A DNA stretch of 64,000 nt, taken from positions 2,418,001 through 2,482,000 of the forward strand of contig NZ_CP033325.1 in NCBI RefSeq assembly GCF_003710105.1, in the 5' to 3' direction. Every line of letters starts with the position of its first letter. The first letter of the stretch is position 1. Position numbers and translations under genes: made by a program. The notes below the pieces were generated by a model. That model did not search any database. It worked only from the letters and a program-made list of their open reading frames with translations, and was not told the DNA's origin. Source of the DNA: Georgenia faecalis. GTDB taxonomy: Bacteria > Actinomycetota > Actinomycetes > Actinomycetales > Actinomycetaceae. Positions 20,363-50,812 of this stretch are shown piece by piece.

Positions 20363-20366
<4 letters not shown>
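19221..20366 (+). CDS. Proposed F420-0 ABC transporter permease (FecCD family)
   Basis: Integral membrane permease of the BtuC/FecCD type, 381 aa, with nine to ten hydrophobic segments from about residue 47 onward. The conserved loop GAVMQALTRNPLADPYLLGVSSGAS is visible near residues 131-155, and the C-terminal GFVGLVLPHAVRLLVG segment is the ATPase-coupling region. The GTG start at 19221 overlaps the stop of the binding-protein gene by four bases. The N-terminal 45 residues are Gly/Arg-rich and probably cytoplasmic. Substrate is inferred from the neighbours, not from the sequence. Confidence 0.78.
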
Positions 20367-21241
<875 letters not shown>

Positions 21242-21478: not shown

Positions 21479-22240
21479 TCAGTCGTCGGTGACGGCGTGC
21501 CGGAAGAGGTCCTCCTCCGGCGGGCGCACGAGCGAACGCGCGCCCTCGCCGTCCTCGGTGGTGACCAGGTGGCCCATGCCCCGGACGACGGCGACCGGCC
21601 GGCCCGCGACCTTGCCCTTGACCAGCTCGGCGGCGGCGGCGATCTCGTCCGCGGTGGCGATGATGCTCGACTGGAGCGCGCGACCGTACGCGTCCTTCTC
21701 CCCCCGCATGTCGAGCAGGAGCACGACGCCCGCGGCACCGATCGCGAGGTCCGCCACGCCGCGCCGCCACGGGCGCCCCGCGGTGTCCGTGACGAGGACG
21801 CCGGGGCGGGCTCCGAGCCGGGCGTGCAGGCCCCGGCGGAGCCGCCGCGCGGACGCGTCGGGGTCCTCGGGCAGGAGCAGCGCCGTGCCGGGCGGCACGT
21901 CGGAGGTGTCGACGCCGGCAGCCGCCATCACCAGCCCCTGGGGGGTCTCGACGATGCGCAGCACGCCGCCGTCCGGGCGGTCGCGCTCGGCGACGACGCG
22001 CACCGTCTGGGCCGCGATGGCCGCGTCACGCTCGGCGTCGTCGCGGGCGGGCACGAGGCGGCGCTCGGCCTTGGCGACCACCTTGCTCGCGACGACGACG
22101 ACGTCGCCGTCCGCGAGCCCGGTGGAACCGTCGGGCCAGCTCAGGGCGCCGAGCACGGGGGCGAGGACGGCGGCGAGGTCGTCACCGCCGGAGATCATGG
22201 GGACGCCGTCGGGCGCCTGGGCGAGGAGCATCGACGCCAC
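21479..22240 (-). CDS. cofE: Coenzyme F420-0:L-glutamate ligase (CofE type)
   Basis: A 253-aa GTP-dependent ligase that adds gamma-linked glutamates to F420-0. The family motif [23 protein letters not shown] is near residues 150-172, and the region [18 protein letters not shown] matches the metal/GTP-binding start of CofE. It has no C-terminal FMN/nitroreductase domain, so it is the stand-alone form, unlike mycobacterial FbiB. The GTG start lies one base after the upstream gene; an internal ATG at 22229-22231 is an alternative. With the neighbouring uptake transporter it would complete imported F420-0 to F420. CofC, CofD and CofGH are not in this window. Confidence 0.85.
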
Positions 22241-22241
22241 G

Positions 22242-23240
22242 TCAGCGGGAGAGCTGGGGCAGGACGTCGCGGCCGAACACCTCGAGCCACTCGCGCTGGT
22301 TGCGGCCGACGTTGTGGAGGTAGATGCGGTCGAACCCGAGGTCGACGTACTTCTGGATCTCCGCCCGGTGGACGTCGGGGTCGGCGGAGATGACCATCCG
22401 TCCGGCGAAGTCCTCCGCGCGGACGAGCTTGGCCATCGCGGCGAAGTCGAAGGGCGAGCGGATGTCCGCCTTGGGGAACTTCATGCCGCCGTTGGGCCAC
22501 TGGTCCATGGCGTTGGCCAGCGCCTCCTCGTCGGTGGGCGCCCACGACAGGTGGAGCTGGAGCACCTTCGGCATGGTGTCCGGGTCCTTGCCGGCCTCGC
22601 GGGCACCGGCGGCGAACTTCTCGAAGAGCGAGCCGATCTTCTCCAGCGGGGCGCCGACGGTGATGAGGCCGTCGGCGTGCTTGCCCGCCCGCTTGGCGGT
22701 CACCGGTCCCCCGGTGGCCACGAGGATCGGCGGGGCCTCCTCGGGCATGGTCCACAGCCGGGTGGACTCGAGCTTGTAGTACGTGCCCGCGTGCTTGGTG
22801 TCCTTGCCCGCGAGGGAGGCGGTGAAGAGCTTGCGGATGATCTCGATCGCCTCGAACATCCGGTTGATGCGCTCGGGCGCCTCGGGCCAGTAGCCCCCGG
22901 TGATGTGCTCGTTGAGCGCCTCGCCGGACCCCAGCCCGAGCCAGTGGCGGCCCGGGTACATCGCCGCGAGCGTCGCCGACGCCTGGGCGACCATCGCGGG
23001 GTGCCACCGGAACGTCGGCGCGGTCACGCCGGGCCCGAAGTCACCGCGGGTCCGCTCGCCGACGGCGGTGAGCACGTTCCACACGAAGGCCGACTGCCCC
23101 TGGGTGGGCGTCCACGGCTGGAAGTGGTCGGCGGCCATCACCCCGGAGAAGCCGTGGTCCTCGGCGAGGGCGGAGTAGTCGACCGCCTCGGTGGGGTGGA
23201 ACTGCTCGAGCGCGGCCGCATATCCGATCGTCAGCGTCAT
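22242..23240 (-). CDS. F420-dependent LLM-family oxidoreductase (G6PDH-like family)
   Basis: A 332-aa luciferase-like TIM barrel of the F420-dependent family that includes F420-dependent glucose-6-phosphate dehydrogenase. The N-terminal ADHFQPW motif and the [28 protein letters not shown] segment (about 100-127), which bind F420 and the phosphate in this group, are visible. The [20 protein letters not shown] motif is typical. It is followed one base later by cofE, so the two are cotranscribed. The substrate is not certain; the neighbourhood links it to F420 use rather than to any sugar pathway. The ATG start is supported by the operon position. Confidence 0.85.
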
Positions 23241-37784: not shown

Positions 37785-38996
37785 ATGAGCGCCCTCACGC
37801 CCGCAGTGGTCCACGAGCTCCTGCGCCCGGAGGCCGGGCTGGCGCGTGGCTTCGAGCTCGTCCGGCACCCGGACCCGCCTCACCTGTACCTCATGGTCGT
37901 CGACGTCGGCACCCGGTTCGCGAGCACCACGCACCCGACGGTGCACGACCTCGCGGGAGCCTTCGACCTCCAGGCCGACGGCGCCGTCCGCCGGGGCCTG
38001 GGCGAGGCGGTGGAACGGTGCGCCCTCGCCCCGCGGGAGACCGGTGACCCGGTCCGCGCGACCCTCGCCGACCTCAGGGCGGCGGGGACGGCCGCCGCCG
38101 ATGCCGAGCACTGGCCCGGCCACTGGCCGGTCGCCGAGCGCGAGGACACCACGTGGTACCCGGCCGAGGAGCTCGGCTCGGGGTGCGAGCGGCTCGTACC
38201 GTCGGCGTGGGTCGACTGCCCGGTGACCGGCCCCCTCGCCGCCCGGTGGGAGGGGACCCCCTCGGGGGCAGCGGCCCACACCTCCCTCGATGCGGCCACG
38301 GCGGTGGCCCTGGCGGAGGTCCTCGAGCGGGACGCGCTCATGCGGACGTGGTTCCGCCCGGACCGTGCGGCGGCGGTGGAGGTCGAGCTCGCCGGGGACG
38401 CGCGCCTCGCCCGGCTGGTGAGCGACCAGCCGCAGGTCACCGTGCGGGCGGCGTGCGTGCCCACCGCCCTGCCCGACCGGCACGCGTACGTCGCGTGGGT
38501 GGACGACGGCGTCACCATCGGGACCGGCGCCGTGGCCGCGGCCGCGGAACCGGAGGGTGTGGTGAAGGCGGTGCAGGAGGCGTGGCAGATCTACCTCGCC
38601 CTGCGCAGCCGGGCACGCACGGGCGGGACCGCCGAGGACGGCGCGCGCGCCTTCGTCGCCCACGGCGAGGCCCGTTGCGACTTCTGGACCGACGGGCGAG
38701 GCCGGGAGGCGATGCGGGCGTGGGCGCAGGGCCTCGGCCCGGCGCGCCCGATGCGCACGGACACCCCCGGGGAGCCGGCCCCCGCGGCGGCCGGGCTCGC
38801 CGCACGCGGGTTCCCCGTCCTGCGGGTCGACCTGACGCACCGGTTGCCCGCAGCCGTCCGTGACGCCGGCTTCGTCGCGGTGAAGGTGCTCGTGGGCGGC
38901 CTTCAGCCGCTCGTCCTCGACGAGGCCGCCGACTGGCCCTTCGTCGACACACGGCTGGGCCGGCGTCGTACCGTCGTGTTCCAGCCGTTGATCTAA
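37785..38996 (+). CDS. YcaO-domain protein (possible RiPP azoline/amide-forming enzyme)
   Basis: A 403-aa protein whose core matches YcaO. Its conserved motifs are AHTSLDAATAVALAEVLERDALMRTW (about 164-188, the usual E-x-x-E-R-D ATP-binding region), GTGAVAAAAEPEGVVKAVQEAWQIY (a later Glu ligand) and the C-terminal FVAVKVLVGGLQPL that corresponds to the PGLEP-like segment. YcaO enzymes activate peptide amides with ATP to form thiazoline/oxazoline, thioamide or macroamidine. No E1-like or docking partner protein is adjacent, and the C-terminus is PLI rather than PxPxP. It ends convergently on the methyltransferase (the CTAA holds both stop codons). Membership in the cluster is inferred by location. 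Confidence 0.72.
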   Translation: MSALTPAVVHELLRPEAGLARGFELVRHPDPPHLYLMVVDVGTRFASTTHPTVHDLAGAFDLQADGAVRRGLGEAVERCALAPRETGDPVRATLADLRAAGTAAADAEHWPGHWPVAEREDTTWYPAEELGSGCERLVPSAWVDCPVTGPLAARWEGTPSGAAAHTSLDAATAVALAEVLERDALMRTWFRPDRAAAVEVELAGDARLARLVSDQPQVTVRAACVPTALPDRHAYVAWVDDGVTIGTGAVAAAAEPEGVVKAVQEAWQIYLALRSRARTGGTAEDGARAFVAHGEARCDFWTDGRGREAMRAWAQGLGPARPMRTDTPGEPAPAAAGLAARGFPVLRVDLTHRLPAAVRDAGFVAVKVLVGGLQPLVLDEAADWPFVDTRLGRRRTVVFQPLI

Positions 38997-39808
38997 CGGG
39001 CGCGGGCCAGGGTGACGAGCACCGTGCGGTGAGGCAGGGCTCCCGCCGTCGGCTCGACGCCGACCACCTGCAGGCCCGTCCCCGCCACCTCGTCCTCGAG
39101 GTCGCCGAGGCTGAGGACTTCCACCGTCGACCGGCACACGGGGACCTCCGGCGTCTCGAGGTCGACGGGGACGACCGTGACCTCGCGCTGCCGGGCGCCC
39201 CGGGCGATGTGCTCGATGATCCGGTAGCCCCGGCCGTCGGGTAGGCGGATGTCGTGGCAGGTGTCCTCGCCCTCCTCCCCCGGGCGGCGGTCCTGGGCCA
39301 CGGACAGCACGAAGCGCCCGCCGTCGGTCAGGTGGCGGGCGACGCTTGCGTACAGGCCCTGGCGGCCGGTGGCGTCGAGCAGGGTGACCGACGTCGCGGC
39401 GAGGACCACCACGGCGAACTGCTCGCCGAGGGTGAAGTCACTCATGTCGCCCTGGACCACCCGGGTGCGGGCCCGGAACGCGCGCGGCGCGGCGTCGAGG
39501 GCGCGCTCGAGCGCGGCGAGCATCGGCACCGACAGGTCGAGCGCGGTGACGTGGCGGCCGAGCGCCAGCAGCGGCAGCGTCAGCCGGCCCGCCCCGGCGG
39601 CGAGGTCGAGGACGGGCCCGGGCGTGCGGGCCACCGCCGCGACGAACTCGCGGACCTCGTGCTGGTCCGCCTCGGCGAGCGCGGTGTAGACCGCCGCGCC
39701 CACCTCGCCGTAGAGGTCGTGGAGGACCACGCGGTCCGCGACCGGGGCGAGGATCTCGGCCGCCAGCCCCGGCACCCCGGCCATGCTGAACACCTGGCCG
39801 GCGCTCAT
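38993..39808 (-). CDS. mpaM: Daptide-type SAM-dependent methyltransferase (MpaM-like)
   Basis: Class I methyltransferase of 271 aa. SAM motif I is VLDLAAGAGRLTLPLL at about 66-81, and later motifs (ALDLSVPMLAALERAL, VVQGDMSDFTLG and FAVVVLAATSVTLLD) follow. In daptide pathways the matching enzyme dimethylates the C-terminal amine made by the dehydrogenase and aminotransferase. Assignment to that role rests on operon context (aminotransferase, ADH, Thr-terminated precursors) rather than on a diagnostic residue. The ATG overlaps the LanKC stop by four bases. It is the last gene of the minus-strand operon. Confidence 0.72.
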   Translation of the reverse strand: MSAGQVFSMAGVPGLAAEILAPVADRVVLHDLYGEVGAAVYTALAEADQHEVREFVAAVARTPGPVLDLAAGAGRLTLPLLALGRHVTALDLSVPMLAALERALDAAPRAFRARTRVVQGDMSDFTLGEQFAVVVLAATSVTLLDATGRQGLYASVARHLTDGGRFVLSVAQDRRPGEEGEDTCHDIRLPDGRGYRIIEHIARGARQREVTVVPVDLETPEVPVCRSTVEVLSLGDLEDEVAGTGLQVVGVEPTAGALPHRTVLVTLARAR

Positions 39809-42336
39809 GCCTGCGCCAGCACGCCGGCCGGGCGGACGGCGCAGCCGCCGACGAAGGGAACGCCGACGGCCTCGGCCCGCGCGATCGACTCGAGCCCCAG
39901 CGCCACCCCGACGGAGCCGGTGGCCAGGTCGGTGGACAGTCGCAGCAGCTCCTGCCCGAGGACGCTGACGTGGTCGTCGTCCCCGACGGCGCACACGTCC
40001 AGCGCACGCAGGTGTCGCTGCACCGCTGCGTCGTCCTCACGGCGTCCGGCCTGGCCGAGGACGGTGAGGACGCCCGCGCGGCCGTGCAGCCACCCGGCCT
40101 GGGGCAGGTACGCGTCGGCGCAGGCGCGCACGAGCTCACGCTCGGTCCGTCCCACCCACTCCTCGGCCATGACGGCGCGCATCTGGCCGAGGACGAGGGC
40201 GATACCCCCGGCACCGCGAGCGAGGGACGGGTGCCTGCGCCACTGGCCGCTCTCGCCGCCCCACCCCAGCGCGCCGAGGTCACGCCGGACCGCGTCGCGG
40301 GCCGCGACGAGGTGACGCTCCTCCCCCGTCGCCTCGTGGAGGCGCAGCCGCAGGAGCGCGGTCCCGCTCCACCCGTCCCACCACCCGGTCGGCTCCCGGC
40401 CGTTGGTCGCGGGGACGGCCGCTGCGTCGAGGGTGTCGGCGAGGTCGACGGCCCGGTCGAGAAGCCCCGGGTCGCCGCCGCGCTGGTGGTGCTCGAGCAG
40501 GACGAGGCCGAGACCACCGACGCCGTCCGCGAGCCCGGGCCCGAGAGCGTCGGTGGGGATCCGCAGGAGGTGCTCGACGACCTCGGCGGCGTCGTCGTGG
40601 CGCCCCATGCCGTCGAGCGCGTACACCACGCCCGCCAGCCCGCGGGCCAGCCCCGGACCGAGCCCGCGCGTCCGGTCGACCGCGGCGAGGAGCCAGTCGA
40701 CGTGCGCGGGATCGACTCCGACACCGAGCTGGTGGAGGCCCCAGAGGACGCCAGCCGCCCCGTGGGCGAACGTCACCCCGCCCGACTCGGCGGTGAACTG
40801 GCCGATGTCGCCGGGAAAGAGGCGGTCGGTGCGTTCGGGCGTGGCCGCGGCGAGGACGCCCGCGACCAGCCGTCGCCGACGCTCGTCCGGGCCCAGCTCA
40901 CGCAGCCGGACCCCGGGGCCCGGGTGGGCGCACGTCCCAGCCCCGAGCGCGAGCTCGGCCCGGGCCTTGTCGAGGAAGGGCTGCGGCACCGCCGCGACCT
41001 CGCGCACCTGTTCCAGGAGGTCCTCCCGCTTCCCCTCCTGCCACGGCAGCACCACGGTCGCCGGGAGGAACACGGCCAGGCGGGTGCACCCCAGGGCGTA
41101 GCGGTCGACGTCGGTCCCCCGCACCCCGGCCGGCGCCCGGAACCCCGGGGCCCCGATCCGCTGCTCGAAGCCGGTGGTGTCCGACCCGGCGGTCTCCAGG
41201 TCGATGAAGTACACGAGGTCGTCCTCGGTGATCATGATGTTGTTGGGATGGAGGTCACCGAAGACCACCCCGCGGGCGTGCATCGCCTGGAGCGCCTCCT
41301 CCACCTGGTCGAGGACCCCCAGGACCCAGGAGGTGTACCCGGCCTGCGTCAGCCCGCCGGCCGTGAGAAGCGGGTTGCGCTCGTGCATCGCCTGCGACAG
41401 CGTGACGCCGTCGACGAACTCCCGCGCGAGGAAGTAGTGCTCGTGGCCGCGCCGGTAGTCGATGAGCCGCGGGATCCCGGCGACCCCGGCGAGGGTCTCC
41501 ATCGCCCAGCGCTCGCGCTCGAGGCGGGTGACGGCGTCGGCCCCGGACTCGTCGAGCCCGGCCATCGGACGCGCCTCCTTGAGCAGGACGCGCGCGCCGT
41601 CGCGCCGGTCGACGGCGCGGTAGACGCCACCACCGTTGGAGAAGTGGAGGGCGGCCTCCGGGCGGAAGGGGAAGTCCTCGAGCGTGCCGGCGTTGCGGGC
41701 GGCGAGCGCCTCCTCCAGGAGCTCGGGCAGCTCGACCCACTCGGGCACGTGGAACCCGGGCTTGCGAACGTCGGGCTCGAGCGTCCCGTCGGGCCGGCGC
41801 AGGCACGGGACCGTCGTCCCGTTCGGGCCGGGGCCGGCGAGGTAGGTGAAGCCCCCGTAACGGACGTAGAGCGGGCCCTGACGCCACCGCAGGTCGCTGA
41901 GGACGTACGGGCCCGGCTCGCCGTCGAGGATCTCGCCCAGCTCGAGGAGCACGGCCCGGAGCTCGCCGACGTCCCGAGGGAAGACGGTGATGAACTTCCC
42001 GCTCGCGCCACGGTCGCCGTACTTGCTGTTGCGGAAGAACAGGGCTCGGGGCCCACGCAGGTGCTTGAAGGCGATCCTCCGGTCGGCGCAGTACCGGGCG
42101 ACCGCCGCGAGCACACGCTCGGCATTGTCGGGCGTGGCGGAGACGTGCACCTTCCAGCCCTGCTCGGGCAGCTCTTCGGTATGCAGGGTGCGCACGGTCC
42201 ACTCGTCGTTGACCGTGGTCGACCACTCGGCCGGCAGGTCGGTGGCGAACAGGGTGTCGTCGTCCGCCCGGACGACGTCGTAGTACGGGGTGCCCGCCGG
42301 GCAGAAGAACTGGTACCGCATGTCCACGTCAGCCAC
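39805..42336 (-). CDS. Class III lanthipeptide synthetase LanKC
   Basis: An 843-aa three-domain synthetase. The N-terminal lyase domain has the class III motif PYVLSDLRWRQGPLYVRYGG (about 143-162). The Ser/Thr kinase domain has Lys 253 (VLLKEARP), the catalytic Asp in GVVFGDLHPNNIMI (D361) and the metal-binding Asp in YFIDLETA (D379). The C-terminal LanC-like domain (about 500-843) has FAHGAAGVLWGL and GWLHGRAGVL, where Leu replaces the usual Cys before HG, so the LanC zinc site looks incomplete, as is common for class III. It phosphorylates and eliminates Ser/Thr to dehydroalanine/dehydrobutyrine. Neither precursor in this cluster has Cys for thioether rings. GTG start at 42336. Confidence 0.88.
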   Translation of the reverse strand: MADVDMRYQFFCPAGTPYYDVVRADDDTLFATDLPAEWSTTVNDEWTVRTLHTEELPEQGWKVHVSATPDNAERVLAAVARYCADRRIAFKHLRGPRALFFRNSKYGDRGASGKFITVFPRDVGELRAVLLELGEILDGEPGPYVLSDLRWRQGPLYVRYGGFTYLAGPGPNGTTVPCLRRPDGTLEPDVRKPGFHVPEWVELPELLEEALAARNAGTLEDFPFRPEAALHFSNGGGVYRAVDRRDGARVLLKEARPMAGLDESGADAVTRLERERWAMETLAGVAGIPRLIDYRRGHEHYFLAREFVDGVTLSQAMHERNPLLTAGGLTQAGYTSWVLGVLDQVEEALQAMHARGVVFGDLHPNNIMITEDDLVYFIDLETAGSDTTGFEQRIGAPGFRAPAGVRGTDVDRYALGCTRLAVFLPATVVLPWQEGKREDLLEQVREVAAVPQPFLDKARAELALGAGTCAHPGPGVRLRELGPDERRRRLVAGVLAAATPERTDRLFPGDIGQFTAESGGVTFAHGAAGVLWGLHQLGVGVDPAHVDWLLAAVDRTRGLGPGLARGLAGVVYALDGMGRHDDAAEVVEHLLRIPTDALGPGLADGVGGLGLVLLEHHQRGGDPGLLDRAVDLADTLDAAAVPATNGREPTGWWDGWSGTALLRLRLHEATGEERHLVAARDAVRRDLGALGWGGESGQWRRHPSLARGAGGIALVLGQMRAVMAEEWVGRTERELVRACADAYLPQAGWLHGRAGVLTVLGQAGRREDDAAVQRHLRALDVCAVGDDDHVSVLGQELLRLSTDLATGSVGVALGLESIARAEAVGVPFVGGCAVRPAGVLAQA

Positions 42337-42348
42337 GCCTCCGCTCGG

Positions 42349-43995
42349 TCATTGCGCGCCGCCGATCCCCAGCGGTGCGAGGTAGGTGTCGGTCAGCCAC
42401 CGCCAGCCCGGCACCGTGCCCAGCGCCACCCGGGCTGAGCCCGCGTGCTCGGGCAACGGGCCGTCGATGGTGACGGGGTACCCGGCCGCGGGAAGCGTGA
42501 GGCCTTCCGCGGTGATGGGCAGGAACGCCTCGATCGGTGCCTGGACGGTCACCGGCTCCGTGCCGGCCACGGTGGCCCGGCCGACCTCCGTGCTCGTCAC
42601 CAGGCCCATCCGGTACAGCTCCACCGGGTCCCCGACCGTGACGTCTCCCGCCCGTGACGGCAGGACGACGTAGGCCTGTCCCTCGTGCACGACATAGCCG
42701 CCCTGCACCGACGCGGGGACCGGCACGACGGCGGCCGCCGCGGCGGCGGTGAGGAGGAGCCCGGCGCTCACCGTCCACGTGCGCCACCGGGGCGCGTGCG
42801 CCTGAAGTGCCTCGCGCTGCAGCCGGGCTCCTCCGACGAGGACGTACGCGAGCGCGCCGCCCGCGACGAGCAGGACGGCCGCTGCGCCGGCCGTCCCGAG
42901 CCCGAGGAGCAGGTCGGCAAGGATGAGGAGCAGCGTCACGACGATGTAGACGGGCATGGCCATCGAGGCGAGGCCGAACGGCACGGCCCACCACCATTGC
43001 GGGAGGTCCCGCCGGCGGCGAGCACCGAAGAGCGTCGCACCGAGCCAGGAACGGGCGTCCCCCATCGCCTTCTCCCGCAGGTGGGGCAGGTCCAGGTGGC
43101 TCATGAGCGCCAGGTACCCGTCGAGCTTGATGAACGGGAGGAGATTCATCAAGCAGGCGACGTATGTCGTCGCGGCGAAGACGTACGCCGTGCTCTGCGC
43201 GGTCGGCCCGAGCGGGAGGCTCGCGGCCGCGAGCGCCGCGACGCCGGCGACGACCGACTGGACGCCGATGCCGGCGAGCGCCACGGCCACCCGCTGGTCC
43301 CGCCGGGGCAGGCGCCAGCCGTCCGTGACGTCGCAGAAGAACGCCGGGGTGAAGTAGAAGAGCATGACGCCCATCCGCGTGGGCCGGCCGCCGAACATGG
43401 CGAGCACCGCCCCGTGGGAGAGCTCGTGGACGCAGGTGGTGAGGAGGTAGCCCATCGCCACGGCGAAGTAGGCGGCGAACGGCAGCGGCGTGCCCAGCGC
43501 CCGGGCGACGTCCTCGGCACGCAGCGCCAGCGTTCCCGCACCGAGGACGGACACCGCCAGCCCCACAGCGATGGCCGACCGGCTGCCCAGGACCGCGATG
43601 AGCGGGCGGAGGGCGTCGAAGAGCCGGTCGGGGCGGAGGACGGTGAGCTGGATCCGGTGCGCCCCGAGGAAGCGCACCCGACGCTGGGCCGGCGGGGCAC
43701 TGCCGTCGTCGAGCATGCCCTTGCCGGCGAGCATGCCGACCGCCTCACCGACCAGGTCGGCGCTCCAGCGCGGCCCGAGCGCCTCGGCCAGGCCCGCATG
43801 GTCGGCGCGCCCGTCCATCTCGCGCATGAGATCGGCCAGGTCCGTCGCCAGCCGCAGGTAGGTGTGCGACCCCTTCTGCACGATCCACGGCGTGCCGTCG
43901 GCGCTCGGCGGGTGGAGGACGACGTCCTCGGCGAGCCTCGGGCGCTGCAGGTGGCTGGGGTCGGGCAGGACCGGCGCCGCGGCGGTCCGTCTCAT
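42349..43995 (-). CDS. mpaP: Intramembrane M50-type metalloprotease of the daptide cluster (MpaP-like)
   Basis: A 548-aa membrane protein. A soluble N-terminal part (about 1-120) is followed by transmembrane segments, with the zinc motif HELSHG (H190, E191, H194) and the second motif LDGYL (D292) typical of S2P/M50 intramembrane metalloproteases. More membrane segments and a soluble C-terminal domain follow. In daptide clusters the equivalent protein is thought to remove the leader from the modified precursor. The ATG overlaps the permease stop by four bases. It may also be part of export or immunity. Confidence 0.8.
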   Translation of the reverse strand: MRRTAAAPVLPDPSHLQRPRLAEDVVLHPPSADGTPWIVQKGSHTYLRLATDLADLMREMDGRADHAGLAEALGPRWSADLVGEAVGMLAGKGMLDDGSAPPAQRRVRFLGAHRIQLTVLRPDRLFDALRPLIAVLGSRSAIAVGLAVSVLGAGTLALRAEDVARALGTPLPFAAYFAVAMGYLLTTCVHELSHGAVLAMFGGRPTRMGVMLFYFTPAFFCDVTDGWRLPRRDQRVAVALAGIGVQSVVAGVAALAAASLPLGPTAQSTAYVFAATTYVACLMNLLPFIKLDGYLALMSHLDLPHLREKAMGDARSWLGATLFGARRRRDLPQWWWAVPFGLASMAMPVYIVVTLLLILADLLLGLGTAGAAAVLLVAGGALAYVLVGGARLQREALQAHAPRWRTWTVSAGLLLTAAAAAAVVPVPASVQGGYVVHEGQAYVVLPSRAGDVTVGDPVELYRMGLVTSTEVGRATVAGTEPVTVQAPIEAFLPITAEGLTLPAAGYPVTIDGPLPEHAGSARVALGTVPGWRWLTDTYLAPLGIGGAQ

Positions 43996-44735
43996 GTGAG
44001 GTCACGTCTCGCGACGAGCGCCCGGGCCGCGGCGCCGAGGACGAGGATCCATCCGACAAGCACCGCGTAGGACCCGCCGATGCTCAGCAGCCCCTCCTTG
44101 CCGTCGAGGTTGACACCGGTCATCGCGATGGTGAACAGGTAGCCGGCCACCTCGGGGGCGAACGATTGCACCCCCGGTTCGACAAGAAGCGTGAGCCCGA
44201 CGATGACGAGGATCGCGGCGACCTGGTGCCGCAGGATCCACCCCAGGAGCACTCCCCAGGTCGCCGAGAGCGTCGTCGTGCCGACGATCCCGAGCGCCGT
44301 CATCGTCGCCTCGTGCGACCAGACGACTTCCGCACCGGTGCGCGGCATGGCCACGTGCACGTACCCGACGGCGAGCGCGGCCGCGACGACACCGAGGACC
44401 AGCCCGGCGGCGGTCCCGGTGAGGGCCTTCGCCCCGAAGAGGCGCGACCGGGACCCGGCGACGAGGACGGACCGGGAGATCGTGCCGGAGGCGTACTCGC
44501 GGGTGACGGACAGTGCCCCGAGGATCCCGGAGACGAGGGTCATGGCGAACCACGAGCGGACGATGACGGCGGTCTGGGTGGCAGGGTCGCTGGCGCCGCT
44601 CGAGAGGAGCTCGCGCGCGGCCTGGGTGAAGCCCTCGGTGAACAGCCCGCCGAGCCCGATGCCGATGAGCAGGAGGGACCACGTCCCGCCGCCGGTCAAG
44701 AGCTTGCGGGCCTCGGCCCGGACGAGGTCAGCCAT
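43992..44735 (-). CDS. ABC-2 type transporter permease
   Basis: A 247-aa integral membrane protein with about six hydrophobic segments (near 18-38, 60-80, 105-130, 140-165, 175-200, 220-240). It matches the ABC-2 permease group found with ATPases in bacteriocin export and immunity. It overlaps the ATPase stop by eight bases (ATGGCTGA), and the protease gene starts inside its stop codon, so it is tightly coupled. Substrate is inferred from the neighbours. Confidence 0.82.
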   Translation of the reverse strand: MADLVRAEARKLLTGGGTWSLLLIGIGLGGLFTEGFTQAARELLSSGASDPATQTAVIVRSWFAMTLVSGILGALSVTREYASGTISRSVLVAGSRSRLFGAKALTGTAAGLVLGVVAAALAVGYVHVAMPRTGAEVVWSHEATMTALGIVGTTTLSATWGVLLGWILRHQVAAILVIVGLTLLVEPGVQSFAPEVAGYLFTIAMTGVNLDGKEGLLSIGGSYAVLVGWILVLGAAARALVARRDLT

Positions 44736-45453
44736 GGGAGTACTGCTCCTCTGCGTCGACGAGGCTGAAGAACCGGTCCTCGAGACGCTGCACGCCCCCG
44801 GACGTCAACGACTCCAGCGATCCCGCGTACCGCACGGTGCGGTCGAGGATGACCACGTCGTCCACGGTCTCCTCGACCTCCGCGAGGAGGTGGCTGGAGA
44901 GCAGGACGGTCGTCCCGCGCGCGGCGCGCTCGCGCAGCACCCGGCGCAGCCAGCGGATGCCCGAGGGGTCCAGGCCGGTGGCGGGCTCGTCGAGGATCAC
45001 CAGCTCGGGGTCGGCCACGAACGCGGTAGCCAGAGCGAGCCGCTGCCGCATGCCCTGGGAGAGCTTGGCGACCTTGCGCCCGGCCACGTCGCTGAGGCCG
45101 ACCTCGCCGAGCGCGCGTTCGACGTGGGCACGCGACAGCCCCATCGCCGTCGCCCAGATGCCCAGCTCGCCGGCCACGGTCGCCCCGGGTGTCGACCCGA
45201 TGCCGTCGATCGAGACGCCGACGCGCTGGGGGGTACCGAGGGCGGCGTAGGGGCGGCCGAAGACGAGCGCACGCCCGGACGTGGGGGCGACGAGCCCGAG
45301 GAGAGCCCGCAGCGACGTCGTCTTGCCGGCCCCGTTACGCCCGAGCAGCCCCGTGATGCGCCCCGGGGCGACCTCGAAGGAGACGTCCTCCACCGCGAGG
45401 GTCGCCCCGTAGCGCTTGGTCAGCGACTCGAAGCGGACGGGGGGTGCCGTCAT
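44728..45453 (-). CDS. ABC transporter ATP-binding protein (RiPP export/immunity)
   Basis: ATPase of 241 aa. Walker A is GRNGAGKTTSLRAL (about 38-51), the signature LSQGMRQRLALATAFV is near residue 134, and Walker B is LVILDEPATGLDPSG with H-loop LLSSHLLAEVEE. It resembles BcrA/CcmA-type ATPases for peptide antibiotic export or self-protection. The ATG at 45451-45453 overlaps the stop of the upstream 66-aa gene by four bases. With the permease it forms a two-component ABC exporter for the cluster product. Confidence 0.9.
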   Translation of the reverse strand: MTAPPVRFESLTKRYGATLAVEDVSFEVAPGRITGLLGRNGAGKTTSLRALLGLVAPTSGRALVFGRPYAALGTPQRVGVSIDGIGSTPGATVAGELGIWATAMGLSRAHVERALGEVGLSDVAGRKVAKLSQGMRQRLALATAFVADPELVILDEPATGLDPSGIRWLRRVLRERAARGTTVLLSSHLLAEVEETVDDVVILDRTVRYAGSLESLTSGGVQRLEDRFFSLVDAEEQYSHG

Positions 45454-45650
45454 GGCTGCTTCTTCGCACGGCTCGACAGGGCGATGCCCGCAAGCCCGAC
45501 GATGAGCGAGACGACGATGGCCGTCGACTGCGCCGGCCCTTCGAAGACGAAGAGCGAGAGGGTGATGAGGGCGAGGACGCCGATGAGGACCCACGCGAGC
45601 ATGTCGCCAGAACGATCCGCCGAGCGGGGGCCTGTCGTGTTGTCGTCCAT
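45450..45650 (-). CDS. Small two-segment membrane protein of the RiPP operon
   Basis: A 66-residue protein of unknown function. The first 16 residues are polar, then two hydrophobic stretches follow (about 17-35 and 42-60), and it ends in SRAKKQP. It lies between a hairpin and the ABC ATPase and overlaps the ATPase start by four bases. Its place and size fit a small immunity or transporter-helper protein, but I do not recognise a family. Confidence 0.7.
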   Translation of the reverse strand: MDDNTTGPRSADRSGDMLAWVLIGVLALITLSLFVFEGPAQSTAIVVSLIVGLAGIALSSRAKKQP

Positions 45651-45675
45651 GTGTTCTCTCCAGTTCGTGGTGGTT

Positions 45676-45707
45676 CCGCCGGGGGGACGGCGCCGTCCCC
45701 CCGGCGG
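45676..45707. terminator. Perfect hairpin between the precursor genes and the downstream operon
   Basis: CCGCCGGGGGGACGGC (45676-45691) and GCCGTCCCCCCGGCGG (45692-45707) form a 32-base perfect palindrome that folds into a GC-rich stem. It lies 25 bases downstream of the second precursor stop (45733, minus strand) and upstream of the 66-aa membrane gene (45650). This is a classic place for a partial terminator that makes precursor mRNA more abundant than mRNA for the export genes. A triple GCTGACGTG repeat follows at 45711-45731. Confidence 0.75.
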
Positions 45708-45732
45708 TAGTGCTGACGTGCTGACGTGCTGA

Positions 45733-45876
45733 CTACGTTGCGGCGGTCGCGGCCGAGAAGACGAGCGATGCGATCGAGATCTTCACGCCCTCCTGGAAAC
45801 CCGTCCACCACCCCAGTGCGTCCATCGGCTCGAGCTCCTGCATCCCGAGCTCCACGAGTGGTCCGTGCTCCTGCAT
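45733..45876 (-). CDS. Daptide-type RiPP precursor peptide A2
   Basis: A 47-residue peptide, found by direct reading because it is very short. It starts ATG at 45874-45876 with AAGGAGGTGAC before it. The leader PLVELGMQELEPMDA (residues 6-20) closely matches the one in the companion gene. The core begins near LGWWTGFQ (21-28), holds one Lys, contains no Cys, and ends SAATAAT with C-terminal Thr 47. Daptide precursors end in Thr, which the dehydrogenase, aminotransferase and methyltransferase convert to a dimethylated diamine. The stop is TAG at 45733-45735. Confidence 0.85.
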   Translation of the reverse strand: MQEHGPLVELGMQELEPMDALGWWTGFQEGVKISIASLVFSAATAAT

Positions 45877-45916
45877 GTCACCTCCTTCGGGTCAGTGGTC
45901 GTTCGTTGTCCGAGGA

Positions 45917-46090
45917 TCAGGTCGCGATGATGGTCGCGACGACGAGGGTCTTGTAGACGCTCGCGCCGGCGGCCGTGACGGCGGTCATGCCGCTGACGAC
46001 GCTGACGGCGGTCCCCCAGAACGGGGCGTCCATGGCCTCCAGCTCCTGCATCGCGAGCTCCACCACGGGCGCGTTCTTCTCCATCTCCAT
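45917..46090 (-). CDS. Daptide-type RiPP precursor peptide A1
   Basis: A 57-residue peptide, starting ATG at 46088-46090 after GGAGGTGACACAC, just five bases behind the dehydrogenase stop. The leader PVVELAMQELEAMDA (residues 8-22) repeats the pattern of the second precursor. The core begins near P23-F24-W25-G26, has three Ser and several Thr, one Lys, no Cys, and ends TLVVATIIAT with C-terminal Thr 57. A second ATG at 46082-46084 is possible but removes only two residues. It is not annotated by length-based gene finders. Confidence 0.87.
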   Translation of the reverse strand: MEMEKNAPVVELAMQELEAMDAPFWGTAVSVVSGMTAVTAAGASVYKTLVVATIIAT

Positions 46091-46095
46091 GTGTG

Positions 46096-47334
46096 TCACC
46101 TCCCCTCCGTGCCTCCGTGCGTGACGACCGCCGGGCGGCGGTCGACGTCGGACCCGGTGGGGGCCGGGGCCCCGGCCTCCCGGGTCACGGCAAGAACCAG
46201 GTCGGCGAGCTCCCGCTCGGCGAACCCGGCAAACATCGGTAGACCGGCACCCCAGGCGCGGTGCACGCGCCGGGCGACCGCGTCCACGTCCAGGTGGCGC
46301 ACTGCCGGGTCCCCGTGCAGCCCCAGCCGGCCCAGGAGTGCACGCACGCCCTCCACCGGGTCGGCCGGGAGCGCCACCCCGGTGGCCTCGGCGACGAACG
46401 CCCAGAGCTCCTCCAGCCGCCGGGCGGAGCCCCACCGCGGGTCGCCGACCTGCATCCGTGCGAGCACGACCGGCAGGACGGCGACGAGCACCGGGACCTT
46501 GCGCGCGCCCGTGCACGCGCAGATCTCGTTCGTCAGCGCCCACCACTTGACCGCATAGGGGGAGCGGCCCGAGACGAGGGCGTCCTGGTGGCTCAGCGCC
46601 CCGATGCGCAGCAGGTCGGCGCGCGCTCCGGGGGGAAGCGCGGCCCCCAGCACCGCGGTCTCGGCGACCAGCGGGGCGAGGACACCGAGCAGCGCCCGCG
46701 CGACGGCGTCCTCGACGGTCCGGGGCCGGGGGTCGCCCAGGCACGGCCCGAGGAGGCGGGCGAGGATCTCGACCACCCCCTCCGCCACGAGCGGCGCGGG
46801 CAGCCCGGAGGTCAGCGCCGGGTCGTGGAGGGCGAGGTCGGGCTGCAGCCCCTCCCCCACGACGAGGCGGCGTCGGCCCACGCCCGTGTGCACGGCGGCC
46901 TTGCTCACCTCGCTGCCGGTACCGATCGTCGTGGGCACCGCGGCCAGCGCTCGCGCCGCGCGGGGCAACGGGGGCAGGAGCACCATCGCGCTGCGGTGCG
47001 GCACCGACAGGTGCGGTCCGCAGTCCCCGGCGCCGAGCCGGACCGCGAGCTTTGCACTGTCGAGGACGGACCCGCCGCCGACGGCGACCACCGCGGCGTC
47101 CGCACGCATGCGGGCGCTCAGCTCGTCGGCGCCCTCCGTCGCTGCCTGGGACAGGACCACGGCCTCGGGGACCGACCGCACGACGGCCGCCAGGAGTCCC
47201 TCGACGGCCTCCTGGCCGCGCACGGCCGGGTCCACGACGACGTCGAGCCGGGGGGCGCGCGTGGCCGCCAGCCAGGCGAGGAGGTCGTCGGCGCGCACGA
47301 CGGTCCGCGTGATGCCCGAGGACCGCGCGATCAC
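46096..47334 (-). CDS. mpaC: Iron-ADH-like dehydrogenase of the daptide pathway (MpaC-like)
   Basis: A 412-aa protein with the fold of iron-containing alcohol dehydrogenases; the NAD motif VVAVGGGSVLDSAKLAVRLG is near residues 86-105 and ALAAVPTTIGTGSEVSKAAV follows. It would oxidise the C-terminal Thr to allow decarboxylation. Odd point: in the usual metal-ligand stretch, where a DxxxH appears, I read AEGVVEILARLL, and the later HG-N-like motif is also absent, so the metal site may be lost or rearranged. The GTG start at 47332-47334 overlaps the aminotransferase stop by four bases. It precedes the precursor gene. Confidence 0.75.
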   Translation of the reverse strand: MIARSSGITRTVVRADDLLAWLAATRAPRLDVVVDPAVRGQEAVEGLLAAVVRSVPEAVVLSQAATEGADELSARMRADAAVVAVGGGSVLDSAKLAVRLGAGDCGPHLSVPHRSAMVLLPPLPRAARALAAVPTTIGTGSEVSKAAVHTGVGRRRLVVGEGLQPDLALHDPALTSGLPAPLVAEGVVEILARLLGPCLGDPRPRTVEDAVARALLGVLAPLVAETAVLGAALPPGARADLLRIGALSHQDALVSGRSPYAVKWWALTNEICACTGARKVPVLVAVLPVVLARMQVGDPRWGSARRLEELWAFVAEATGVALPADPVEGVRALLGRLGLHGDPAVRHLDVDAVARRVHRAWGAGLPMFAGFAERELADLVLAVTREAGAPAPTGSDVDRRPAVVTHGGTEGR

Positions 47335-48647
47335 GGGGCCACCGCCACGAGGGCGGGCCGGAGCCCGGCGGGGCCCTCGCGCCGGGTCGCGTCGGCGTAC
47401 CGGTCGAGACCGCGCGCGACGGCGTCGACCAGCTCGTCGAGCTCGTCCTCGGTGTAGACGAGAGCGGGGAGGAGCTGGATGCCCGCGGGGCCCGGGTGGA
47501 CGACGGCGCCCTCGGCCCGCACCGCGCCGACCAGCGCGGGCACCTCGGCGTCGGGCAGCGCCGCCCCCTGCGGGGTGCGCACCCGGAGCGCGCGGAAGAG
47601 CCCGACGCCGGTGGTGCTCTCCAGGAGCGGGTGCGCCTCGACGAGCCGTGCCAGCCGCGCGTCCAGCGACGCCCCGAGGGCGTGGCCCCGGGCGATGGCG
47701 TCGAGGCGGGTGAACTCTGCGAGCGTGGCGAGGATGGCCGCGCACGTCGGGGGCGTGCCGGCCTGCGTCTCCGCGTGGGAGACGACCGCGCCGACGCCCT
47801 CGAGCGCCTCGGCGACCTCGGTCCCGAGCAGCACGGCCGCCGCGGCCATGGTCCCGTTCGTCAGGCCCTTGGACGTCACGAGCAGGTCGGGCTGCTCGCT
47901 CCATGCGGCCGAGGCGAAGAACGGTCCGGTGCGTCCGAACCCGGTGGCGACCTCGTCGGCGACGAGGAGGTATCCGTGGGTGCGCCGGTGCGCGAGCAGG
48001 CGATCGACGAACGCGCGCTCGAGCGGGAGCGCCCCGGTACCGAGCACGGGCTCGACGACGACGGCGGCGATCTGGTCACCCTGCCGCCGCATGAGCTCGT
48101 CGAGCTCGTCGATGCGGTTGGGGGTGACGTGCCGGACGTATCGCTGGTCCACGCGGTAGAGCGCCTGCCCGAGGTCGTCGCCGGTGAGCGCGAAGCTGCC
48201 GAAGGTGAGCCCGTGGTAGCTGGAGCGCAACCCGACCACGACGGCGCGCCGCGGCCTCCCGGCGACGAGCTGGTAGTGCCGCACGATCTTGGTGACCAGG
48301 TCATTGGCGGCACCGCCCGAGGTGGAGAACATGACCCGCTGGTAGTGCGCCGGCCCTGCCACCTCGACGAGGGCGTCGGCGGCGCGCCGGGCGTAGGCGT
48401 TCTCGTAGCGGAACACCCCGAGGTAGGACGCGTCCGTGAGGGCAGCGGCCGCCGCCTGGGTGATCGCCTCGTTGCCGTAGCCGAGCGGGGTGTTCCACAA
48501 CCCGCTGGTGCCGCACAGCCGCTCGGTGCCGTCGTCGTAGCGCACCCGGACACCGCGGGCACCGGTCGCGCAGAGGTCGGACCGGCCGTGGTCTGCGGGC
48601 GCCACGAGCGCGGGCCACAGCGCGGAGCGGCGGGACTGGTCGTTCAT
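47331..48647 (-). CDS. mpaD: Class III aminotransferase of the daptide pathway (MpaD-like)
   Basis: A 438-aa PLP enzyme. The conserved class III features are SYHGLTFGSFALTG near residue 145, the EPVLGTGALPLERAFVDRLLAHRRTHGYLLVADEVATGFGRTG segment, whose Asp binds the cofactor nitrogen, and the PLP lysine in LLVTSKGLTNG near 259. In daptide pathways this enzyme aminates the C-terminal ketone left after decarboxylation. The ATG at 48645-48647 is the first of the frame that gives the family length. It overlaps the ADH start by four bases. Confidence 0.82.
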   Translation of the reverse strand: MNDQSRRSALWPALVAPADHGRSDLCATGARGVRVRYDDGTERLCGTSGLWNTPLGYGNEAITQAAAAALTDASYLGVFRYENAYARRAADALVEVAGPAHYQRVMFSTSGGAANDLVTKIVRHYQLVAGRPRRAVVVGLRSSYHGLTFGSFALTGDDLGQALYRVDQRYVRHVTPNRIDELDELMRRQGDQIAAVVVEPVLGTGALPLERAFVDRLLAHRRTHGYLLVADEVATGFGRTGPFFASAAWSEQPDLLVTSKGLTNGTMAAAAVLLGTEVAEALEGVGAVVSHAETQAGTPPTCAAILATLAEFTRLDAIARGHALGASLDARLARLVEAHPLLESTTGVGLFRALRVRTPQGAALPDAEVPALVGAVRAEGAVVHPGPAGIQLLPALVYTEDELDELVDAVARGLDRYADATRREGPAGLRPALVAVAP

Positions 48648-48651
48648 CGGC

Positions 48652-49674
48652 CTAGCCCGCCACCGGGAGACCGGCCGCGCAGGCCGCGGGGAGCAGCGGG
48701 AAGCCGGCGTCGGCGAAGTACGTCGCGACGCGGTCGAGCTCCGCGGCGCCGAGGAGGTCGGCTGCGCCGTGACCGAGGACGAGGATCCGCTCGACGGTGA
48801 CGGCGAGCGGGTGGGCGATCTGGACGGTGCGCCCCGCGTCGCTGAGGTAGGCGTGGTGGGCGTCCCAGCAGAGCACCGGTGCGGGGGCACCCGGCCCGGC
48901 GGGCACCCCGTCGAGCGCCCCGTCGAGGCGGCCGCCGAATCCGGACGCCCGTGCGCTGTCGACACCGCGCGCCGCCAGCGCGCGCAGCACGCCGAGGGTC
49001 TTCACGTACTGACCGAGCCACGGCCGCTCGGTGAACGCCGCGGCACGCTCGTCGTCACTGACCGCGCGGCTCAGCGCCACCGCGCAGGGGGTCCCGGCGT
49101 CGTTCGCCGCGGCCCACCGCACGACGAGCGCGTCCAGGGGGTCGTCCGCCGTCCCCAGCGGCGCGCCCCACGGGCTCGTGGACACCTCGCCGTCGGCCCG
49201 GACCCAGAGCCGGTCCCCGGGGCCGCCACGGCCGGTCCATCCGCCGAGGGCCGGCTCGTCGGCCAGGAGCGTGGTGGGACCGGCGACGAGACCGGGGAAC
49301 CGCCCGGTGGTGAAGGCCTCGTCGGCGTCGGAGAGGTAGGCCTCGAGATCGGAGGTCTCCGTCACGCGCAGGAGCGTCGGTCCACCGACCGGGATGTACC
49401 GGCCGAGGGCATAGGGGACCACCTGCAGGGAGAACTCCCCGGCGACGAGGACCTCCCCGTAGGGCTCCTCGAGGGAGCCGTCGTAGCCCCAGGTGCCTTC
49501 CTGCCCGTCGGGGGTGTAGACGGTGGTGCCCTCACCGACGAGGCCCGCTGCCCGCAGCGCCTCCACCTGCCCCGGGACGGCGGTGACCACCACCCGGGCA
49601 CCGGTGCCGCCGGCGTCGCCGTGGGCCGTCCCCGACGCCCATCCGGCGAGGGTCTTCTTGTAGCTCTCCATCAT
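48652..49674 (-). CDS. Probable RiPP recognition protein of the daptide cluster (MpaB-like)
   Basis: A 340-aa protein with no recognised enzyme motif, mainly of mixed hydrophobic/polar character. Its position just upstream of the aminotransferase/ADH pair and its size match the daptide recognition protein, but I base this on location, not on homology. The first two codons are both ATG; the second (49669-49671) is better spaced from the GGAG upstream. It is the second gene of the operon, 24 bases after the LLM oxidoreductase. Other roles are possible. Confidence 0.55.
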   Translation of the reverse strand: MMESYKKTLAGWASGTAHGDAGGTGARVVVTAVPGQVEALRAAGLVGEGTTVYTPDGQEGTWGYDGSLEEPYGEVLVAGEFSLQVVPYALGRYIPVGGPTLLRVTETSDLEAYLSDADEAFTTGRFPGLVAGPTTLLADEPALGGWTGRGGPGDRLWVRADGEVSTSPWGAPLGTADDPLDALVVRWAAANDAGTPCAVALSRAVSDDERAAAFTERPWLGQYVKTLGVLRALAARGVDSARASGFGGRLDGALDGVPAGPGAPAPVLCWDAHHAYLSDAGRTVQIAHPLAVTVERILVLGHGAADLLGAAELDRVATYFADAGFPLLPAACAAGLPVAG

Positions 49675-49698
49675 CAGCTCCGTGGGTACTGGGGCGCC

Positions 49699-50709
49699 TC
49701 AGCGGGCGCCGATGGTCTCGGCACGGGTGGACGGCGCGGCGGGGCTCGCCGCGAGGGCCGCGAGGAGCACCTCGAGCTCCTCGACGGCGGCCTCGGCCCC
49801 CTCGACGTTGTAGATACCGGTGACGTTGAGGATGACCTCGTCCACCCCGGCGTCCCAGTACTGCTGCACCATCCCGGCCAGCTCGTCGACGTCCCCGCAG
49901 AGGAAGGCACCGCCCGCGACGATGGCCTTGGCCCCGGCGATGGGGTCGGCAGCGTCGACGGCGATCCCCGCCTTGCCGAGCATGTCGATGTAGTGCGGCG
50001 CCCGGGAGTGCGCGAAGTTGCTCGCCATCGCCAGCTTGAAGGGCTCGTGCTGGGGCCGGCGGCGGGCGATGGGGAGGATGGTGGCCAGCCGCGGCCGCGG
50101 CCGCCCGGCGCTCTGTGCCCCCTCCTCGAGAGCGGGCACGACGGTGTCCCGGAGGTAGGACGCGGGGGTGAGCCAGGTGATGGCCACGTCCGCAGTCTCC
50201 CCCGCGAGACGCGCCATGCGCGGGCGCAGGACGCCGAAGCCGAGCTCCACCGGGGGCGCCGGGCACTGCGCCAGACGCGCGTCACACCGGAAGGTCTCCG
50301 CCTCCGCGTGGACCTCGCCCCCGGCAAGGAGCTGGCGCACCGTGGTGATGTACTCCCGCATCGCGCCGAGCTGGCTGCGGTACGGCTCGCCGCGGACCCC
50401 CGTCTGGAACGACGTCCCCCCAGGGCCGAGCCCGAAGGTGACCGGCTGACCCGTCGCCAGAGCCAGTGACCTCGCCTCCATAGCGGCGTAGTACGGGTGC
50501 CGCAGCGGCGCCAGCGTGACGCCGATGCCGACGGGGACCCGCACGCCCGCACCGGCGAGGTAGGCAAAGCCCTGGTTGGTTTCGAGCAATGTCGACTGGC
50601 CCTGCCACAATGCCGCGCCCGGCACGCTCTGGACGATTGCCCCAAAGGGGAGCAATTGTTCCGGCCGACGCGGGACCAATGGCAGGAAGACGGAGACACG
50701 GCGTTGCAT
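49699..50709 (-). CDS. LLM-class flavin- or F420-dependent oxidoreductase of the RiPP operon
   Basis: A 336-aa luciferase-like monooxygenase fold. The barrel features are RVSVFLPLVPRRPEQLL at the N-terminus, VGIGVTLAPLRHPYYAAMEARSLALATGQPVTFGLGPGG near residues 60-95, and GFGVLRPRMARLAGETADVAITWL near 155. This fold uses FMN or F420. The cofactor cannot be told here. In class V lanthipeptides an LLM-like F420H2-dependent reductase converts dehydroalanine to D-Ala, so that role is plausible beside LanKC. The ATG at 50707-50709 is chosen because AAAGGG precedes it; a GTG at 50748 is an alternative. It is the first gene of the operon. Confidence 0.72.
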   Translation of the reverse strand: MQRRVSVFLPLVPRRPEQLLPFGAIVQSVPGAALWQGQSTLLETNQGFAYLAGAGVRVPVGIGVTLAPLRHPYYAAMEARSLALATGQPVTFGLGPGGTSFQTGVRGEPYRSQLGAMREYITTVRQLLAGGEVHAEAETFRCDARLAQCPAPPVELGFGVLRPRMARLAGETADVAITWLTPASYLRDTVVPALEEGAQSAGRPRPRLATILPIARRRPQHEPFKLAMASNFAHSRAPHYIDMLGKAGIAVDAADPIAGAKAIVAGGAFLCGDVDELAGMVQQYWDAGVDEVILNVTGIYNVEGAEAAVEELEVLLAALAASPAAPSTRAETIGAR

Positions 50710-50782
50710 CGGTGGCCCTTTCCCTGCGTCAGGAGGGGCCCCGCTCACCTGTGCTGGTGAGTTGCTCCGGCGCCTCGCGGCA

Positions 50783-50812
50783 TGTGTAGCGGGACGGCGA
50801 GTTGCTCGTCAA
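50783..50812 (-). promoter_or_regulatory. Probable promoter for the RiPP operon
   Basis: On the minus strand TTGACG (50807-50812) and TACACA (50783-50788), spaced 18 bases, match sigma-70-type -35 and -10 boxes. The predicted start of transcription is near 50776, about 67 bases ahead of the LLM start codon. It is the first promoter-like element upstream of the operon. Confidence 0.5.

Follow-up and report, generated by a model that had tools for sequence, protein, structure and literature searches.

The stretch of DNA analysed here (the window) comprises 64,000 nucleotides of the Georgenia faecalis genome (RefSeq assembly GCF_003710105.1, contig NZ_CP033325.1, positions 2,418,001 to 2,482,000) and carries a daptide gene cluster, in which the enzymes of this class of ribosomally synthesized and post-translationally modified peptides (RiPPs) stand together with a LanKC lanthionine synthetase, an oxidoreductase of the luciferase-like monooxygenase (LLM) type and a YcaO protein. 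It is probable that the cluster turns core Ser residues into D-Ala and gives its peptides an amine-type tail, with a reductase that probably runs on imported F420; the products are likely to be short, membrane-active peptides bearing both modifications. The class is already known, as is the gene combination, and the cluster alone thus adds one more daptide; what sets it apart is a YcaO of divergent type and the likelihood that it depends on imported F420.

Daptide enzymes and precursors

All of the genes named in a first-pass annotation of the window are present, in the order and on the minus strand that it gave: the LLM oxidoreductase, dapB, dapD, dapC, precursors A2 and A1, a 66-residue membrane protein, the ATP-binding cassette (ABC) exporter genes T1 and T2, dapP, lanKC and dapM. 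The family search that it had proposed, against Mpa-type and LanKC models, took six enzymes past the equivalog cut-offs of NCBIfam: LanKC and five that are specific to daptides (DapB, DapC, DapD, DapM and DapP, with DapC passing by a narrow margin). Its recognition of daptide logic was borne out by these matches and by the Thr-ending precursors, A1 scoring above the precursor model NF041808, and the synteny comparison that it suggested revealed the same block order in Georgenia satyanarayanai.

Both precursors have a leader of the type MQELE.MDA, and A2 served as a seed of our precursor profile. Neither contains Cys, and no third precursor with Cys was found in a search for Thr-ending small open reading frames (ORFs). 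No thioether rings are therefore expected, and the cluster was not filed as a class III lanthipeptide.

From gene content we infer the following chemistry, as well as the use and import of F420. DapB would hold the leader and DapC would oxidatively decarboxylate the last Thr, DapD would transaminate the ketone, and DapM would methylate the amine. YcaO may then join the mono-methylated amine to the amide before it, forming an imidazoline, as DapY does in Thermobifida fusca. LanKC would phosphorylate and then dehydrate core Ser residues, and the LLM enzyme would reduce the dehydroalanine to D-Ala; DapP would cut the leader, with T1 and T2 exporting the peptide. Core cleavage is predicted for both precursors, and this qualification applies to A1 in particular.

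Iron-dependent alcohol dehydrogenases (Fe-ADHs) usually carry D-x3-H as their metal-ligand pair. The corresponding position of DapC holds E-x3-R in all 20 of the 20 sequences aligned, and DapC was accordingly rejected as an iron enzyme, which agrees with Dommaraju et al. (PMC12338566; this and the other papers cited are drawn on as excerpts) and so is not new.

LanKC residues and Ser content

The window LanKC retains all eight counterparts of the lyase residues of ThurKC (PMC10604976): K62, H64, K91, K105, K114, D148, R159 and R191. Its kinase residues K253, E275 and D379 are likewise kept. Ser content was compared over 67 of the 75 clusters surveyed, eight having been dropped for want of precursors or of DapD, with recognisable duplicate genomes merged. 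The median was 0.153 Ser per core residue in 30 LanKC-bearing clusters, three of which (L046, L047 and L118) have weak LanKC matches only (199-249 bits), versus 0.030 in 37 clusters without LanKC. A DapD tree of 41 rows unites all 18 strong-LanKC rows, the window included, in one clade (support 99/95). An LLM gene was seen within the stretch examined in nine of these 18; its absence from the named loci was not counted, as the gene is frequently located outside the 10 kb flank.

Several observations weigh against the proposed pathway. On well-supported branches of the DapD tree a single independent pair is left; the contrast in Ser content accordingly describes a lineage rather than an independent test, and we rejected it as independent statistical support for LanKC action. 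A1 has Leu at the end of its leader where Pro is usual, and a P(-1)A change reduced processing in the work of Ren et al. (PMC10036551). The A1 of G. satyanarayanai has Thr at two of the three Ser positions, and LxmJ could not reduce dehydrobutyrine (PMC8068269); the Ser-to-D-Ala logic is thus not conserved site by site. In addition, the Ser content of the window (0.10) lies at the low end of the LanKC clusters, Ser-rich cores also occur in two Amycolatopsis clusters that have no LanKC, and L046 and L047, with their weak LanKC matches, fall outside the LanKC clade of the DapD tree.

Cofactor supply of the reductase

LanJC enzymes are held to be F420H2-dependent. The best NCBIfam model for the window LLM is TIGR03564 (105.9 bits, below its cut-off of 234.25), which has been named as the family of LxmJ and Cao12 (PMC8068269). 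All eight of its PDB sequence matches at E values up to 0.001 are F420-linked by name or known function, and its identity to the LLMs encoded by eight hosts with CofH is 48-57%.

A search for CofH/FbiC (TIGR03551) gave no candidates in the window genome, which is 99.98% complete, and no match in any of six genomes of the G. satyanarayanai genus (one of them 57% complete). Among genomes with LanKC as well as an LLM, ten were tested and eight scored above cut-off with the same model, the two without being the window genome and G. satyanarayanai. Weaker TIGR03551 matches in 11 of 14 control genomes indicate that the search was not blind. For CofD, the sole PF01933 match in the window genome is YvcK (TIGR01826 282.6/196, TIGR01819 24.7/257.45; scores written in this way are bits over family cut-off, from NCBIfam or Pfam profile searches).

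Outside the operon, about 16 kb from the daptide cluster and in the same window, lie genes for a putative F420-0 ABC importer, for CofE and for a second LLM enzyme, which might supply F420H2 (Table 1). CofE reaches only 50.7/350 with the folate-ligase model TIGR04132. For the second LLM, TIGR03885, labelled as a flavin mononucleotide (FMN) family, scores higher (313.7) than the F420_G6P model, yet below its own cut-off of 398.7. Of three stretches viewed in the G. satyanarayanai genus, two keep the importer-CofE-LLM block whole, and one (L154) has the importer without CofE and the LLM adjoining it. TIGR03868 scored above cut-off in six of 19 genomes, namely the window genome and all five tested of the G. 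satyanarayanai genus, and in none of the 13 others. The idea of an F420-0 transporter is said to come from Selengut and Haft in 2010. Given an F420-type LLM without CofH and with an importer-like operon and CofE, F420-0 salvage is the likely source of the cofactor, and the D-Ala step would probably run on salvaged, imported F420.

There are also caveats to and arguments against such a supply. The F420 synthesis genes that went undetected are the two searched for, CofH in the lineage and CofD in the genome tested. Import of F420-0 is a function that NCBIfam assigns as putative, and TIGR03868 has matches below cut-off in nine of the 13 other genomes and in nine of 14 controls. Literature passages on F420-0 or on transporters yielded no description of F420-0 uptake, and in the collection searched daptide and F420 never occurred together within one paper. 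The importer also occurs in relatives without a daptide DapD match, and was therefore not acquired for the daptide cluster. CofE was found in all 16 genomes searched, F420 makers and non-makers alike, and in chlamydiae, which are without other cof genes, a CofE homologue replaced FolC (PMC1971073).

The YcaO protein and the peptide tail

When the window YcaO was aligned with 11 other daptide YcaOs, 38 columns proved invariant over all 12 proteins; its identity to the ten from outside Georgenia is 27-33%. A search with the protein itself returned, among the matches scored (the 7,992 candidates with most words in common), itself and three relatives at 59-62%.

Three observations count against a DapY-like role. 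The protein ends in FQPLI, and its G. satyanarayanai counterpart in YQPLI, so that neither has PxPxP; the T. fusca YcaO and its relatives end in PHPLP, and several other daptide YcaOs, from clusters without LanKC, end in PHPLI and are likewise short of the motif. In trees of 37 and 33 sequences, between which four rows were dropped (the long-branched L077 and L098 as well as L081 and L082), the Georgenia pair stands apart from the T. fusca lineage. Finally, a single group of LanKC-cluster YcaOs, defined after the first tree, was rejected (approximately unbiased test, p 0.017). In the larger of the two trees the L098 YcaO, itself from a LanKC cluster, likewise lies apart from the T. fusca lineage. 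The missing PxPxP and the separate lineage leave the imidazoline step weakly supported.

Because DapD groups with the strong-LanKC clusters while YcaO does not, the simplest reading of these sequences would be that the cluster comes from the known LanKC lineage and that its YcaO was recruited or replaced separately. A thiazoline-forming YcaO is unlikely, with no Cys in the precursors and a TIGR03604 score of 66.3 against 219.25. The divergent protein raises the question of whether PxPxP is required for C-terminal imidazoline formation at all.

Conservation and frequency of the block

In G. satyanarayanai (genome G007, contig NZ_UETB01000010, loci L059/L069) the block is complete, YcaO and the small membrane protein included, with order and directions kept and protein identities of 51-90%. 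None of 19 proteins flanking the block in the window was matched in the surroundings of the G. satyanarayanai cluster (~7.7 kb and ~9.4 kb beyond its ends), except that an ABC ATPase query gave generic matches only, one being T1 itself; no tRNA was found around that cluster. Its occurrence in two different neighbourhoods indicates that the block, with YcaO, behaves as one unit and not as a chance assembly.

In the genomes scanned, always counting that of the window, DapB scored above its cut-off in 17 of 394 from the class; for DapD the counts were five of 213 (family), 12 of 396 (order) and three of 396 (phylum). Among the contigs of the named genomes, DapB alone as query found no relative, and a scan with the YcaO alignment found 52 loci, T. 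fusca among them; the named set is therefore biased towards YcaO-bearing clusters. The T. fusca gene set was recovered in pieces in this survey (L083, with the LLM in L032).

Two side observations concern individual loci. At L030 (G040:C10:116442-117423) the DapB match is split over two frames, covering profile positions 2-228 and 228-331, which may reflect a frameshift or a sequencing error. Four LanKC/LLM daptide clusters, L062, L065, L066 and L054 (genomes G325, G318, G341 and G760), have no YcaO within the stretch examined; in G341 and G325 the contig stops soon after LanKC, so the absence is unsure there.

Locus organization

The window belongs to a single-contig genome of 3.43 Mb. The operon runs compactly from 50709 to 38993, with gene overlaps or short gaps, and the block with YcaO spans 37785-50709 (Table 1), the 3' ends of ycaO and dapM overlapping by 4 bases. 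An alternative GTG start for the LLM oxidoreductase lies at 50748. On one flank are trigger factor and ClpX, plus two ClpP genes named from their reading frames only, and on the other tRNA-Gly and tRNA-Pro. At its C-terminus the adjoining trigger factor (36105-37577) has about nine SAD repeats in a row.

The 66-residue membrane protein could, as a guess, have an accessory or immunity role. A small hydrophobic ORF was seen by eye at the equivalent place in six of 12 other clusters viewed, and such an ORF between precursors and ABC ATPase recurs in the LanKC-type daptide clusters L083, L031, L054, L070, L106 and L059.

Table 1. Genes of the daptide block and of the importer/CofE block, with window coordinates; scores are bits/family cut-off.
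Feature	Position	Strand	Evidence and remarks
YcaO protein, 403 aa	37785..38996	+	PF02624 94.4/25.7; convergent with dapM; ends ...VVFQPLI
dapM, S-adenosylmethionine (SAM) methyltransferase, predicted N-methylation of C-terminal amine	38993..39808	-	NF041820 265.6/175
LanKC, class III lanthionine synthetase, predicted Ser/Thr dehydratase	39805..42336	-	NF038151 847.7/575
dapP, M50-type intramembrane protease, predicted leader removal	42349..43995	-	NF041824 434.3/300; PF02163 24.2, below 27.2 cut-off
dapT2, ABC-2 permease	43992..44735	-	PF12730 27/27, exactly at cut-off
dapT1, ABC ATPase	44728..45453	-	PF00005 96.4/25, longer frame used as query
Small membrane protein, 66 aa	45450..45650	-	Open frame; no family above cut-off
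Precursor A1, 47 aa	45733..45876	-	NF041808 37.3/25; GGAGG upstream; predicted core GWWTGFQEGVKISIASLVFSAATAAT
Precursor A2, 57 aa	45917..46090	-	NF041808 18.9/25, below cut-off; GGAGG upstream; predicted core FWGTAVSVVSGMTAVTAAGASVYKTLVVATIIAT
dapC, Fe-ADH-fold dehydrogenase, predicted oxidative decarboxylation of last Thr with DapB	46096..47334	-	NF041822 307.5/300
dapD, class III aminotransferase	47331..48647	-	NF041821 598.3/450
dapB, recognition protein bearing a RiPP recognition element (RRE)	48652..49674	-	NF041823 276.8/150
LLM oxidoreductase (dapJ/LanJC-like), predicted F420H2-dependent dehydroalanine reductase	49699..50709	-	PF00296 92.2/27.9
Putative F420-0 ABC importer, substrate-binding protein	18220..19224	+	TIGR03868 435.4/392.4
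Putative F420-0 importer permease (FecCD)	19221..20366	+	PF01032 289.3/26.5 in enclosing frame; GTG at 19221, exact start uncertain
Putative F420-0 importer ATPase	20363..21241	+	TIGR03873 353.5, below 372.4 cut-off
CofE, F420-0:L-glutamate ligase	21479..22240	-	TIGR01916 216.6/180.65; PF01996 168.6/25
Second LLM enzyme, F420_G6P family	22242..23240	-	TIGR03557 288.7/210.4

Discussion

The step that bears most directly on the cofactor is the reduction of dehydroalanine. A reductase working here without F420, either with FMNH2, so that D-Ala arises by a flavin route, or idle, so that dehydroalanine is kept, would fit a genome with no CofH match and an importer that is only putative, and FMN users do occur within the LLM superfamily; the orphan CofE may, moreover, serve folate (PMC1971073). 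We regard such a reductase as unlikely, since the best family and all PDB matches of the enzyme are F420-linked, its homologues at 48-57% identity belong to CofH-bearing hosts, and an F420-0-type importer, CofE and a second F420-type LLM share the window with it. A YcaO that is not a DapY deserves more weight and is quite possible, if somewhat short of an even chance: the protein would either leave the backbone alone or change it in another way, for example by forming a heterocycle or amidine at another core position, and the tail would stay dimethyl-diaminopropane (Dmp). Its separate lineage, its low identity to the ten daptide YcaOs outside Georgenia, the lack of PxPxP in both Georgenia-type proteins and the few relatives among the matches scored in its own search all speak for this, but the gene is kept beside the operon in both Georgenia-type clusters despite their different neighbourhoods, the residues invariant across the 12 daptide YcaOs are, by definition, kept, and there is no Cys for a thiazoline.

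The two remaining alternatives concern the cluster as a whole. A silent or decaying cluster might be suspected from a simple scan that found no sigma-70-like promoter, a scan that leaves other promoter types uncovered; it is very improbable, as every frame checked is intact and the proteins remain 51-90% identical to those of G. satyanarayanai in a conserved gene order. A true lanthipeptide-daptide hybrid with thioether rings would be in keeping with a LanKC above the class III cut-off, but it is contradicted by the Cys-free precursors of the window and by 88 cores from the 30 LanKC-bearing clusters that contain no Cys whatever; we rejected it and leave it next to no probability.

The favoured reading, a daptide with D-Ala residues, an amine-type tail and a reductase fed by imported F420, can be taken further, with correspondingly less assurance. 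A producer unable to make F420 would import F420-0 and finish it with CofE, the dehydro and D-Ala forms of the peptide would depend on neighbouring microbes, and the tail would be closed by an independently recruited YcaO without PxPxP; as a complete account this is tentative and rather doubtful. If salvage feeds the LLM, the structure of a natural product would depend on other microbes, and if it does not, LanJC would not be strictly F420-dependent. The cluster is thus a natural test of cofactor supply, with a mass shift of ~2 Da per Ser as its readout. For cores that begin where predicted, the calculated [M+H]+ values with Ser changed to Ala are 2633.46 (Dmp) and 2601.43 (Diz) for A1 and 3277.87 (Dmp) and 3245.85 (Diz) for A2, those of the corresponding dehydro peptides being 2627.41 and 2595.39 for A1 and 3271.83 and 3239.80 for A2. 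Whereas the first-pass annotation had anticipated losses of 18 Da units, the expected loss is ~16 Da for each Ser with a working LLM, and 18 Da only with an idle one.

That annotation had also proposed a hybrid RiPP outside the known subclasses. LanKC, the LLM enzyme and YcaO are indeed present beyond the core daptide set, as it said, but they do not make the cluster unassignable: T. fusca has the same set (PMC12338566), and clusters with LanKC/LanJC pairs and with YcaO proteins appear among the daptide clusters of Ren et al. (2023; PMC10036551). Dommaraju et al. (2025; PMC12338566) counted 1,034 putative daptide clusters, among which that of the window may already be included. A different kind of combination was seen in Amycolatopsis sp. 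WAC 01376 (L113, 2132-5088), where no LanKC was matched in the stretch examined. An LLM, a HopA1-family lyase (PF17914, 148.5 bits), LxmK (NF038156 377/315) and a YcaO accompany its daptide genes, and two Cys occur in a precursor that ends in Thr (GGNCGGNVDP.ACDASLGG); from its sequence this locus looks like a class V lanthipeptide-daptide hybrid. The Amycolatopsis daptide clusters L102 and L093 have similar Cys precursors and no LanKC match in the stretch examined, and an LLM was seen in L102. A full-text literature search for daptide together with class V matched PMC10036551 alone.

Compared with characterized systems, the daptide chemistry of the window resembles that of the mpa cluster of Microbacterium paraoxydans, in which DapBCDMP convert Thr to Dmp, and window A1 passes the daptide precursor model NF041808; the mpa cluster was picked there as having primary modifying enzymes only (PMC10036551), whereas the window has three extra enzymes. 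The sca cluster of Streptomyces capuensis, as described in the same paper, shares the daptide core and LanKC/LanJC, and conversion of L-Ser to D-Ala was shown there, the product having five Ser changed to Ala with D-Ala identified by Marfey analysis; the excerpted description, from which rather than from sequence this likeness is drawn, mentions no YcaO, unlike the window. The LLM-type LxmJ/LanJC of lexapeptide belongs to TIGR03564 (MSMEG_4879), the best model for the window LLM, a likeness by family and not by sequence; unlike the window enzyme, it serves the making of a class V lanthipeptide in Streptomyces (PMC8068269, PMC8498797).

The closest published counterpart is the tfDap cluster of T. 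fusca, which has DapBCDMP, T1T2, LanKC (DapKC), an LLM (DapJ) and a YcaO (DapY) in common with the window, as well as Cys-free, Thr-ending precursors and a small ORF between the precursors and T1; it was described with DapKC, DapJ and DapY, the last of which closes the C-terminus to dimethylimidazoline (PMC12338566). It differs in having five precursors rather than two and a YcaO of another lineage, ending in PHPLP and co-directional with LanKC where that of the window is convergent and ends in FQPLI, and in a host with CofH above cut-off where the window genome has no match. In G. satyanarayanai, by contrast, the cluster has the same order, directions and YcaO type, again with no CofH match and with an F420-0-type importer; it lies in another genome neighbourhood and shows Ser/Thr swaps in its cores.

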